Source of the DNA: Billgrantia sulfidoxydans
GTDB taxonomy: Bacteria > Pseudomonadota > Gammaproteobacteria > Pseudomonadales > Halomonadaceae
DNA: 64,000 nucleotides
Reading direction: 5' to 3'
Assembly: GCF_017868775.1 (NCBI RefSeq)
Contig: NZ_CP053381.1
Span: 558,001 to 622,000, forward strand
Made by a program: the position numbers and the translations under genes
Shown here: one piece after another, positions 32,268 to 45,272 of the stretch
Layout of the letters: each line of letters opens with the position of its first letter
Position numbering within the stretch: the stretch's first letter is position 1
Notes under the pieces: model-generated
What the model was told of the DNA's origin: nothing
What the model saw: the letters and a program-made list of their open reading frames with translations, nothing else
Databases searched by the model: none

Positions 32268-33581
<1,314 letters not shown>

Positions 33582-33621
33582 GCGCATCGCTCTGGCCATC
33601 TGGCCGACGATATCGCTGACA

Positions 33622-33647
33622 TTTTTGTAGGACATTGACTACAAAAA
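33622..33647. promoter_or_regulatory. 26-bp palindrome resembling a GacA/UvrY upstream activating site
   Basis: TTTTTGTAG and CTACAAAAA flank eight bases as a perfect 9-bp inverted repeat. Its core TGTAGG-N6-ACTACA (33626-33643) matches the GacA/UvrY box TGTAAG-N6-CTTACA at 9 of 12 fixed positions and keeps the 18-bp geometry. It lies about 110 bases upstream of the GGA-rich RNA region. In known Csr/Rsm RNAs such boxes lie from roughly -60 to -190. It is not a terminator: the T-run is at the 5' side on both strands. Confidence 0.6.
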
Positions 33648-33677
33648 GGCGAAGACCTAAGCCTACATAGCAGTGAG

Positions 33678-33707
33678 AAGGCCGATGCCGGAGGTGTCGG
33701 CCTTTTT
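33678..33707 (+). terminator. Terminator downstream of eno
   Basis: AAGGCCGA and TCGGCCTT form an 8-bp stem with an 11-base loop (TGCCGGAGGTG) and run into TTTTT. The loop contains a GGA. It is the likely end of the eno transcript, though it lies after the GacA-type palindrome. Confidence 0.75.
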
Positions 33708-33754
33708 CTATCCCTTTGTTTTTACTGGCTTGGCTGCTTCTTCAGTCAACTTTA

Positions 33755-33993
33755 GGGAGGCCTTGAAGTTGATTGGCGGCCGCTTGCGCCTTTTGCCGGA
33801 CATGCCAGAATGCACGTGGGACAAGGCAGAGCGGGAGGCTCTCCGGCAGGATGCAACGGGATGCTATCGACGTGGCACGCCCGGTGTGACAGGAAGTCGC
33901 CTCCGGGCAGGGACGTTGCCGCAGGAGAGAGGGCGGAGGGAACCGCCCAAGGAAATGCTGGGAGCCGGGCGACCTATGGGTCGCCTTTTTTTT
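33755..33993 (+). ncRNA. CsrB/RsmZ-type CsrA-sequestering small RNA (candidate)
   Basis: No protein fits this stretch, but it holds 13 GGA motifs in about 208 bases (roughly 4 expected from composition). Several sit in the loops of short perfect stems: AGAGC-GGGAG-GCTCT (33828-33842), GCA-GGA-TGC (33846-33854), GAC-AGGAA-GTC (33888-33898), GGCA-GGGACGT-TGCC (33906-33920) and GGGCGG-AGGGAA-CCGCCC (33931-33948). This is the hallmark of CsrB/RsmZ RNAs that bind CsrA. It ends in a strong terminator (33967-33993), lies beside fdxA as rsmZ does in Pseudomonas, and has a GacA-box-like palindrome upstream. csrA itself is 11 kb away. The 5' end is not resolved; 33755 is the first GGA cluster, and no convincing -10/-35 pair was found. 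Confidence 0.72.
33967..33993 (+). terminator. Rho-independent terminator of the candidate CsrB/RsmZ-type RNA
   Basis: GGCGACC, loop TATG, GGTCGCC, followed by eight T residues (33986-33993): one of the strongest terminators in the window, fixing strand and 3' end of the RNA. Confidence 0.92.
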
Positions 33994-34017
33994 GCCTGGG
34001 CTACGGGGGCGGACGCT

Positions 34018-34045
34018 GCGCCGAATGCCGGCCGGCATTCGGCGC
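34018..34045. terminator. Perfect 28-bp palindrome between the small RNA and fdxA
   Basis: GCGCCGAATGCCGG followed by its exact reverse complement. It lies 22 bases past the fdxA stop (minus strand) and could fold as a stem at the end of the fdxA mRNA, but no T-run follows on either strand. Confidence 0.55.
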
Positions 34046-34067
34046 GAGTGGGCGGGTCTGGCTGGGC

Positions 34068-34391
34068 TCAGCGCTCCAGGTACTGCAGCTTGCCGGGCTT
34101 GCCGTCCCACTCCTCGGCGTCGGCCGGGGGATCCTTCTTCTCGGCGATGTTGGGCCACACCTCGGAGAGCTCGGCATTGAGGGCGATGAACTCCTCCTGG
34201 CCCTCGGGGAGTTCATCTTCCGAGAAGATCGCCTCGGCGGGACACTCCGGTTCGCACAGGGCGCAGTCGATGCACTCGTCCGGGTGAATCACCAGGAAGT
34301 TGGGGCCTTCGTAGAAGCAGTCCACCGGGCAGACCTCGACGCAGTCGGTGTACTTGCACTTGATGCAGTTTTCGGTGACGACAAAGGTCAT
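34068..34391 (-). CDS. fdxA: FdxA, 7Fe (3Fe-4S/4Fe-4S) ferredoxin
   Basis: A 107-residue electron carrier. Cysteines at 9, 12, 17, 21, 25, 40, 43, 46 and 50 fit a 7Fe ferredoxin of the Azotobacter FdI/Pseudomonas FdxA group, with a long C-terminal extension ([18 protein letters not shown]). The start [10 protein letters not shown] is the family start. It lies downstream of mutS on the same strand and converges on the candidate small RNA. Redox partner unknown. Confidence 0.97.
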
Positions 34392-34552: not shown

Positions 34553-37141
34553 CTAGAGCTTCTCGCGCCAGGCATAGATCAACTCCAGCGCTCGGCGCGG
34601 CGTCAGCTCATCCGGGTCAAGGCCGGCCAGATCGTCGAGCAGGGGGTGGGGCGCGGTGGCAAACAGATCGCTCTGCAACGGGGCCGGCCCGCTGTCGTGT
34701 CGAGGGGTGCCACGGTGGCCCTGGTCGACCTCCTGCTGCTCGAGCTGGGCCAGCTTGTCGCGCGCGCGTGCGATGACGGATGGCGGCACGCCGGCCAGTT
34801 GGGCCACTTGCAGGCCGTAGCTCTGGCTGGCGGGGCCCTCTTCCACCCGGTGCATGAAGACGATGCCGTCGCGATGCTCGGCGGCGGTGAGGTGCACGTT
34901 GGCCACCCCCTCGGCCTGATCGGCCAAGGCCGTCATCTCGAAGTAATGGGTGGCGAACAGGGTGAAGGCACGCGTGCGGGTCAGATGCTCGGCGCTGGCC
35001 CAGGCCAGCGACAGGCCGTCGAAGGTGCTGGTGCCGCGACCGATCTCGTCCATCAGCACCAGACTGTGGTCGCTGGCATTGTGCAGAATGCTGGCGGTCT
35101 CGGTCATCTCCACCATGAAGGTCGAGCGGCCGCCCGCCAGGTCGTCCGACGAGCCGATGCGGGTGAAGATGCGGTCCACCGGGCCGATGCAGGCCTCGTC
35201 CGCCGGCACGAAGCTGCCGGTATGGGCGAGCAGCACGATCAGCGCCGCCTGGCGCATGTAGGTCGACTTGCCCCCCATGTTGGGGCCGGTGATGACCAGC
35301 ATGCGGCGGCGGTCGTCGAGCACCAGGTCGTTGGGCACGAAGGGCGTGTCGCTGACGTGCTCCACCACCGGATGTCGCCCGCCGCGAATCTCGATGCCGG
35401 GCAGTTCGGCGAGACGGGGCCGCGAGAAGCCGAGCGCCTGGGCACGCTCGGCGAAGGCCGCCAGCACGTCCAGCGCGGCCAGCGCCCGGCCGGTGCCCTG
35501 AAGCGCGTTGAGTTCGGCGTTGAGCGAGTCGAGCAGGCTGTCGTAGAGCAGCTTCTCGCGGGCCAGGGCGCGTGACTTGGCGGACAGCGCCTTGTCCTCG
35601 AACTCCTTGAGTTCGGGAATGATGAAGCGCTCGGCGTTCTTCAGGGTCTGGCGCCGGATGTAGTCGACCGGTGCCTCGCGGGCCTGGGCGCGGGGGATCT
35701 CGATGTAGTAGCCGTGCACCCGGTTGTAGCCCACCTTGAGGCCGGCCAGTCCGGTGCGCTCGCGCTCGCGGGCCTCGAGCCGCACCAGGTAGTCGCCGGC
35801 GTGCTCGGCCAGCCCGCGGTAGTCATCGAGCTCGGCGTCGAAGCCTTCGCGGATCACGCCGCCGTCGCGGATCACCACCGGCGGGTTGTCGACCAGCCCG
35901 CGGGCGAGCAGGTCGGCGAGTTCGGGGTAGGGGCGGATATGATGGCTCAGCTCGTCGAGTGCGGTCCCTTCGCTGTAGTGCTGCAGCTCGCGCTCGAGCG
36001 TGGGCAGCGCCAGCAGGGCGTCGCGCAGGCGCGCGAGATCCCGCGGCCGGGCGCTGTAGAGTGCCACCCGGGCGAGGATGCGCTCGACGTCGCCGATCGC
36101 CTTGAGCAGCTCGCGCAGGGCCACGAAGCCCTCCTGCTCGAGCAGCAGCGCGACCGCCGCCTGGCGCCCCTGCACCTGGGCACGGTCGCGCAGCGGGCGG
36201 TTGAGCCAGCGCTTGAGCAGCCGCGAGCCCATGGCGGTGGCGGTGGTATCGAGCACGCTGGCCAGGGTATTGTCGCCGCCGCCGCCGAGGTTGATGTCGA
36301 TCTCGAGGTTGCGTCGACTGGCGGCGTCGATCACCACGGCATCGTCGCGGTTCTCCACGCCCAGCGCGGTGACGTGGGGCAGCCGCGAGCGCTGGGTGTC
36401 ACGGGCGTACTCGACCAGCACGCCGGCGGCGGTGAGGGCGGCCTCCAGGTGGGCACAGCCGAAGCCGCGCAGGTCCTGCACCTGGAACTGGTCGCACAGC
36501 AGGCGCGTGGCCGATTCGAGATCGAACAGCCAGTCGCTCTGGCGGCGCAGCCCCGGGCGACCCTCCAGCGCGGGCGGCAGCGACAGGCTCTCGGGCAGCA
36601 GCAGCTCGGCGGGGTCGAGGCGCTGCAGTTCGGCGAGCATGTCGCCTTCGCCTTCCACCTCGAGCACGCTGAAGCGGCCGCTGGAGAGTTCCAGCCAGGC
36701 GATGCCCCAGCAGTCGCCGACCGGGTGCACGGCGACCAGCAGGTTATCGCGGCGGGCGTCGAGCAGCGCCTCGTCGTAGAGCGTGCCCGGGGTGACGATA
36801 CGCACCACGCGGCGCTCCACCGGCCCCTTGCTCGTCGCCGGGTCGCCGATCTGCTCGCAGATGGCCACCGATTCGCCGGCCTTCACCAGGCGCGCCAGGT
36901 AGCCCTCGGCGCTGTGGTAGGGCACGCCGGCCATGGGAATCGGCTTGCCCGCGGACTGCCCACGCTGGGTCAGGGTGATGTCGAGCAGCGCGGCGGCGCG
37001 CCTGGCGTCGTCGAAGAACAGCTCGTAGAAATCGCCCATTCGGTAGAACAGCAGCACCTCGGGGTGCTCGCGCTTGATCTTCAGGTACTGGGCCATCATC
37101 GGCGTATGGCTCGGCACATCCGTCTTGACCGCGTCGTTCAT
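34553..37141 (-). CDS. mutS: MutS, DNA mismatch recognition protein
   Basis: Recognises mispairs and starts methyl-directed mismatch repair with MutL. The 862-residue protein has the N-terminal mismatch-binding domain with the Phe-x-Glu motif ([10 protein letters not shown]), connector and lever domains, and the ABC-type ATPase with Walker [10 protein letters not shown] (about residue 618), and ATP-binding-site helix-turn motifs through [12 protein letters not shown]. The C-terminal dimerisation tail (about 800-862) is present. Divergent to the MscS gene. Confidence 0.98.
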
Positions 37142-45071: not shown

Positions 45072-45272
45072 ATGCTCATCCTGACCCGCCGAGTCGGAGA
45101 AACGCTGATGATCGGTGATGACATCACCGTGACCGTCCTTGGCGTCAAGGGCAACCAGGTCCGTATTGGCGTCAATGCGCCGAAGGATGTCGCCGTACAT
45201 CGTGAAGAGATCTACCAGCGCATTCAGCGCGAGAAGTCCGACAATGAGGGGGGTAGCGGCTCCGCCTCGTAA
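45072..45272 (+). CDS. csrA: CsrA/RsmA, carbon storage and translational regulator
   Basis: A 66-residue dimeric RNA-binding protein, starting [19 protein letters not shown], with the core motifs [20 protein letters not shown] (RNA-contacting Leu4 and Arg44 regions retained). It binds GGA loops in mRNA leaders and is titrated by sponge RNAs such as the candidate at 33755-33993. Shine-Dalgarno AAGGAG lies seven bases before the ATG. It lies after lysC and before tRNA-Ser, a conserved pseudomonad order. A stem GTTTGGC/GCCAAAC (45293-45309) without T-run follows. Confidence 0.98.

Follow-up and report, generated by a model that had tools for sequence, protein, structure and literature searches.

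Sponge RNAs that titrate CsrA act by a textbook mechanism of a known kind, and the surprise in the present case is their copy number. The site bound by GacA or UvrY has the consensus TGTAAG-N6-CTTACA (PMC4950607, PMC4682653) and in P. aeruginosa is placed by PMC4950607 at -196 for rsmZ and at -75 for rsmY. According to PMC4682653, csrB and Pseudomonas rsmZ are both sites of IHF action. E. coli CsrB resembles the RNA described here in its GGA hairpins and in its control region, for which PMC4682653 gives an 18-base UvrY-bound inverted repeat centred at -183/-182 and an IHF site before the promoter; it differs in its length of 369 nt, its 22 GGA and its genomic place. In the E. coli sequence we find the box 191 bases ahead of the annotated csrB start. 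Alcanivorax CsrR2 is likewise a predicted CsrA sponge adjoining a ferredoxin gene (PMC9788540), although, likened here by description, it differs in being reported as antisense to that gene and as having six unpaired GGA. The largest printed set of sponges that we encountered is that of Azotobacter vinelandii, for which the table in PMC7366521 lists nine, RsmZ1-7 and RsmY1-2; RsmZ1-7 and RsmY are also named in PMC4824345.

In Halomonas anticariensis the GacS/GacA system is described as governing quorum sensing, exopolysaccharide and biofilm, and the CsrA-titrating RNA of Halomonas is entered as 'Unknown' in a comparative table of 2020 (both PMC7366521). Here we investigate a 64,000-nucleotide stretch of the Billgrantia sulfidoxydans chromosome, referred to as the window, and the genome to which it belongs (G000). 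Among the papers listed on searching Halomonas, Halomonadaceae and Chromohalobacter together with Csr, Rsm and Gac, none was seen to describe these RNAs, and an earlier in-silico mention is possible. A prediction paper by Kulkarni and colleagues appeared in 2006. As far as could be seen, neither this family's RsmZ nor the extent of its sponge set had been described before.

The segment between eno and fdxA

The features of the locus and the csrA gene of the window are as follows.

32289-33581, plus strand, eno, the upstream neighbour (TIGR01060, 674.7 bits)
33626-33643, plus strand, GacA/UvrY box TGTAGGACATTGACTACA, 9 of 12 consensus positions
33703-33727, plus strand, AT-rich block, possible IHF site, conserved in the spacer alignment
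33784-33811, plus strand, predicted promoter (TTGCGC, 16 bases, CAGAAT) in conserved columns
33817-33993, plus strand, probable RsmZ-type RNA of about 177 nt carrying 11 GGA, its start placed to an estimated accuracy of a few bases
33828-33842, plus strand, less certain 5' hairpin, AGAGC-GGGAG-GCTCT, its loop containing GGA
33873-33921, plus strand, branched stem (outer TGGCA/TGCCG, inner GCCCGG/CCGGGC, tip GTGAC-AGGAA-GTCGC), covarying helices 1 and 2
33931-33948, plus strand, hairpin GGGCGG-AGGGAA-CCGCCC with GGA loop, covarying helix 3
33967-33993, plus strand, intrinsic terminator made of an 8-pair stem and a run of eight T, helix 4
34068-34391, minus strand, fdxA, the convergent neighbour (NF045490 FdxA, 177 bits)
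34553-37141, minus strand, mutS, beyond fdxA, named from its translation and tblastn
45072-45272, plus strand, csrA, encoding the expected target protein, identified by its N-terminal motif

We consider that the plus strand of 33817-33993 very probably encodes an RsmZ-type RNA that would be activated by GacA and would sequester CsrA, as one of about eight predicted sponges of the genome. The evidence computed for this reading comprises conservation, covarying GGA hairpins, the box, the promoter, the terminator and the gene order, together with the occurrence of csrA, of gacA paired with uvrC and of a gacS-like gene. Such an RNA would be a good candidate for the 'Unknown' Halomonas entry, and the cascade becomes testable in a genus of biotechnological interest. 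A sequence-only reading of the window had proposed a sponge of this type on the plus strand, convergent with fdxA. Four lines of evidence, namely conservation, covariation, the position of the box and the order of the genes, support the strand, the convergence, the RsmZ-type identity and the proposed sponge role.

That reading had also reported 13 GGA motifs, a hairpin with a GGA loop and a strong terminator, all of which were recovered: 13 GGA lie between 33756 and 33963, the hairpin consists of GGGCGG (33931-33936), AGGGAA (33937-33942) and CCGCCC (33943-33948), and the terminator of a stem at 33967-33986 with eight T at 33986-33993. The GGA density of these 239 bases is the highest among all stretches of that length on both strands of the window, the runner-up having 10. 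The mean is 6.7 in 5000 mononucleotide shuffles, 19 of which reach 13, and 8.6 in 5000 dinucleotide shuffles, of which 131 do; composition therefore accounts for part of the density, although not for everything.

A start at 33755, as first proposed, is too early. The conserved promoter and the conserved blocks place the 5' end near 33817, which leaves 11 GGA in about 177 nt. A start at 33740-33755 was rejected, the hairpin at 33742-33778 having no conservation among the aligned spacers. The fold energy of 33740-33993, a stretch that takes in this unconserved hairpin, has a z of -3.92. For the shorter RNA, of about 177 nt, z is -2.07, with 7 of 200 shuffles folding equally well: an unremarkable value that by itself speaks only weakly for this RNA. 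The window scores 182.8 bits with our model R1 over 33811-33993, by construction, since the window sequence is a training row of R1.

The RNA carries many GGA motifs, several of them in hairpin loops, as do small RNAs of the CsrB/RsmZ kind. The earlier claim of at least five GGA in the loops of perfect stems was right in that GGA hairpin loops exist and somewhat strong in its number: in the minimum-energy fold of 33811-33993, four of the 11 are in hairpin loops, four are otherwise unpaired and three are partly paired. The 5' hairpin at 33828-33842 is absent from this fold, and a counterpart with a GGA loop is present in the folds of several relatives. The promoter and intrinsic terminator that characterize a small RNA of this kind are both present, as judged by sequence conservation alone. 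In most relatives the promoter reads TTGAGA and CACAAT (TTGAGA-N16-CACAAT in the alignment); a consensus promoter scan of the window missed the one at 33784-33811.

Between the RNA and fdxA, at 34016-34048, is an inverted repeat, GCGCCGAATGCC-GGCC-GGCATTCGGCGC, which is perhaps the fdxA terminator.

Conservation and upstream control

A blastn query with 33600-34000 gave matches in 76 of 151 genomes of the window's own family. Seventy of these loci were retrieved, six with matches of just 25-43 bases being omitted. Enolase is present in all 70 and FdxA in 65, two of the remaining five stopping at a contig end; in all 65, eno is directed towards a convergent fdxA. The comparison of related eno-fdxA spacers that had been proposed as a check was made with the 62 of 65 that are up to 760 bases long, and the GGA-rich hairpins proved to be conserved. 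Four blocks are conserved in this alignment: a palindrome, TGTAAGAGATttCCTACA; an AT-rich stretch; the promoter; and a terminator-ended, GGA-rich segment, in which the motif occurs 8 to 13 times per relative throughout the 62. Conservation is poor in the region that separates the AT-rich block from the promoter and contains the hairpin at 33742-33778.

From 41 non-redundant cores, 35 were kept as members of an alignment (A1); six (L036, L038, L040, L044, L061 and L064) were dropped on visual inspection because their length was unusual or their 5' end misplaced, and these six genomes nonetheless score 97-143 bits with R1. RNAalifold on the 35 members gave the branched stem, the hairpin and the terminator. 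Covariation was counted on this structure minus the doubtful outer terminator pairs. Paired cells make up 94.7%, versus 39-52% when partners are slid by 1-3 columns, a comparison tilted towards the consensus structure, since that structure was derived from the alignment itself. Both sides have changed in 20 of 28 pairs, versus 12.7 in shuffles; the covariation score is 0.442 (0.206 in shuffles, none of 500 reaching 0.442), and further pair types number 48 (41.4 in shuffles, one of 500 reaching 48). Within the branched stem (helices 1 and 2), 12 of 14 pairs are altered on both sides, and in 8 of 35 rows the pairing at the tip is lost. Helix 3, at 33931-33948, is altered on both sides in all six pairs while every one of the 35 rows keeps the GGA of its loop, so that one GGA loop is flanked by stems as different as GGGCGG/CCGCCC, GAGCAT/ATGCTC and TTGACC/TGGTCA.

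Model R1 covers the RNA in 119 of the 151 family genomes at E<=0.01, and in 111 at 1e-12 or better. Two genomes of one genus (g8; G031 and G046) have four R1-type units each, consecutive between eno and fdxA.

L204:2141-2868, minus strand, R1-type units, three in the locus listing
L205:2050-2775, minus strand, R1-type units, four in the locus listing

A run of five T was sought between the units of L204 and none was found, so the units may make one long RNA; a good box was also not found at this locus. Three related genomes of another genus, g16 (L155, L156 and L157), keep the fdxA-side RNA, and in these a recognisable GacA box was not found within 320 bases upstream. Judging from these sequences, regulation in g16 may differ.

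The box itself occupies a single column block of the spacer alignment. Within the first 500 bases it is present at 9 or more of 12 positions in 63 of 65 spacers (11% of shuffled spacers), and at 10 or more in 55 of 65 (1.4%). On the window a stricter pattern, TGTNNGN6CNNACA, missed the site at 33626-33643, and a looser one gave three sites versus 3.7 expected, no better than chance alone; the window box counts because it is conserved in relatives, and for that reason only. It begins about 190 bases ahead of the estimated RNA start, within the roughly 180-196 bases upstream that would be expected of an RsmZ ortholog.

Between box and promoter, 46 of 62 spacers contain an IHF-like site with no more than one mismatch, as do 23% of shuffles, and in 34 of the 46 it occupies the same place. 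The window's site has two mismatches and, like the window's 9/12 box, is weaker than in most relatives. The AT-rich region has an IHF-bound counterpart in P. protegens, as described in PMC4950607.

As the sequence-only reading had noted, csrA is within the same window, at 45072-45272 on the plus strand, and its product is nearly identical to the CsrA that PMC12889724 prints for Halomonas hydrothermalis. Elsewhere in the genome a UvrY/GacA-like protein, 54% identical to UvrY, adjoins uvrC in an E. coli-like arrangement, and there is a BarA/GacS-like kinase (36%). We infer transcription of the window RNA, its activation by GacA, its binding of CsrA and its effect on mRNAs, and the likely course is as follows. 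The GacS kinase would phosphorylate GacA, which would bind the palindromic box (33626-33643) some 190 bases ahead of the RNA start, with IHF perhaps bending the AT-rich stretch between box and promoter. RNA polymerase would start near 33817 and stop at 33993. The RNA would present up to 11 GGA, several in hairpin loops, and bind several CsrA dimers; this titration would free the mRNAs that CsrA represses.

Relation to RsmZ and other readings of the locus

The Rfam models for CsrB, RsmY and PrrB_RsmZ, which had been suggested as a check, gave no match: no Csr/Rsm family was found in the window, nor in 33580-34100 even at E<=10. Six weak matches to other families (asX2, hammerhead II, Xoo2, TarB, ar35 and SMCR2_2) fall far short of the respective cut-offs and were put down to chance. 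RF00166 (PrrB_RsmZ), with a gathering cut-off of 44 bits, finds no match anywhere in G000, and the RNA is therefore filed as one of the RsmZ kind, outside RF00166 as modelled now. Pseudomonas RsmZ, for which the model has 133 positions, has 6 to 9 GGA, unlike the window RNA with its 177 nt or so and 11 GGA.

Is the RNA then an ortholog of RsmZ? Or is it a CsrA sponge of other descent, independently arisen or displaced, that lies beside fdxA by chance? The latter is unlikely in our judgement. It would agree with the lack of an RF00166 match, with the finding that R1 significantly matches no rsmZ locus recognised by Rfam, and with the upstream gene, which is eno here and rpoS in the gene list given for Pseudomonas RsmZ in PMC4353343. 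The layout of the locus argues against it. RF00166 exceeds its cut-off in 12 of 293 genomes of the order, presumably Pseudomonas; in nine of these 12 loci the convergent order RNA-fdxA-mutS is the same as in the window, and in all 12 the model match follows the start of the best box by 178 to 190 bases, the same offset, with GGA hairpins and a terminator as further likenesses. Twelve sub-threshold RF00166 loci from other families were also considered, and fdxA adjoins seven of them, including the doubtful L200, which is without GGA. Two of the seven have a box of 11 or more of 12 at -168 to -187 and two have one of 10-11 of 12 at -280 to -297; three have no box better than 9 of 12. A further sub-threshold match, in G020 (L081), was set aside because it sits among coding frames. 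Outside the family R1 gives weak matches in 18 genomes (4e-4 to 8e-3), of which only L158, in G304, adjoins FdxA, and the others may be chance. This G304 locus (C13, 19.6 kb), beside fdxA-mutS, is matched by both R1 (4.2e-4) and RF00166 (2.6e-6). It is the one intermediate locus that the two models share, there being otherwise no significant cross-match. Orthology with RsmZ is probable from place, orientation and promoter layout, the sequence having apparently drifted past direct recognition.

Two further readings were weighed. An antisense regulator of the convergent fdxA, besides or instead of a CsrA-binding RNA, is suggested by the report on Alcanivorax CsrR2 in PMC9788540, yet the terminator ends at 33993, 75 bases short of the fdxA stop at 34068, so that overlap with fdxA needs read-through, and we regard this role as very improbable. 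Hardly credible at all is a short protein gene, or a 3' UTR of eno, in which the GGA motifs mirror a G-rich composition. Frames of 204 and 228 aa do span the segment, an ATG at 33810, overlapping the -10 element, is often kept, and composition alone accounts for the 8.6 GGA given above. However, this ATG is absent in 16 of 62 relatives, the frame elsewhere runs from 11 to 109 codons, and the lengths are spread over all three modulo-3 classes (21, 16 and 25). The stems covary, eno has a terminator-like site of its own at 33687-33701, and the RNA has its own conserved promoter. The RsmZ-type sponge is our preferred reading of 33817-33993.

A putative second sponge class

The window RNA had been called the CsrA sponge of this organism. 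The sponge role is supported but the RNA is not the sole one, seven more sponge-like genes being predicted. A search for boxes in G000 pointed to more GGA-rich segments ending in terminators. A second model, R2, was made from 27 sequences that include copies A, B, D and E and exclude F, G and H, and it gives seven matches in G000 at E<=1e-3.

G000:C1 1366849-1366983, 1367215-1367345, 1367878-1368000 and 1368148-1368275, plus strand, R2 copies A, B, F and G, in tandem beside a dusA-like gene
121509-121644 and 123368-123498 (L201:4510-4645 and L201:6369-6499), minus strand, R2 copies E and D, R2 match
G000:C1:1511156-1511280 (L265:457-581), plus strand, R2 copy H, isolated, with a 9/12 GacA-like box at -74

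In the tandem array (L202:4850-6276; G000:C1:1366849-1368275, plus strand) a terminator-like hairpin follows each gene. Segment C of the same array has nine GGA and a terminator, but its R2 E-value is 0.47, and it is only a possible fifth tandem sponge gene. R2 scores the window RNA at 12 bits and R1 matches the window RNA alone in G000. Since R1 and R2 scarcely cross-match, the two classes differ. Rfam searches of ten loci in G000 at E<=1 gave no Csr/Rsm match and one unrelated weak hit.

The box is independent of the R2 model, and 54 R2 hits above 40 bits were examined for it. Within 250 bases upstream it is present at 10 or more of 12 positions in 18 of the 54 (0.8% of shuffles) and at 9 or more in 32 (8.2%), with the best box at -73 to -78 or -96 to -101 in 38. 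Copies A, D, F and H are preceded by a box and B, E and G are without one. These four are among ten distinct box sites in G000; the other six (L072, L076, L077, L078, L079 and L080) have 3 to 7 GGA per 180 nt and no R2 match. Good GacA-like boxes with no sponge downstream stand at G000:C1:1889005, 2560710 and 2713706, and these may be direct GacA targets of a different type or chance.

R2 is found in 84 of 151 family genomes; the 67 without it include 14 of the window's own genus. The highest copy numbers, which are search tallies at E<=1e-3, are 18 in G122 (8 of the 18 matches were read), 14 in G114 and in G126, 11 in G123 and 10 in G136. The class is like RsmX and RsmY in its GGA hairpins, in a box near -75, the position that PMC4950607 reports for P. 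aeruginosa rsmY, and in its tandem copies, which PMC7911923 reports for rsmX. It differs in the lack of a Csr/Rsm Rfam match at the ten loci and in its seven copies here and up to 18 elsewhere.

On balance we lean towards regarding the family as the site of the largest CsrA-sponge expansion yet, comprising an RsmZ ortholog and a multi-copy RsmX/Y-like class, with tandem, separately terminated genes and, in one genus, a four-unit rsmZ that is perhaps one long sponge, in which dosage would tune CsrA. Should the second class prove real, the widely differing sponge-gene counts of related genomes would make up a natural series, in which one could ask why many copies of one titrator persist.

Copies within a genome are diverse, with a mean identity of 0.58 among 10 copies in G136 and 0.68 among 8 copies in G122. 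In G000, copies E and D have a common terminator stem, and dienelactone-hydrolase-like and thioredoxin-like frames lie between them.
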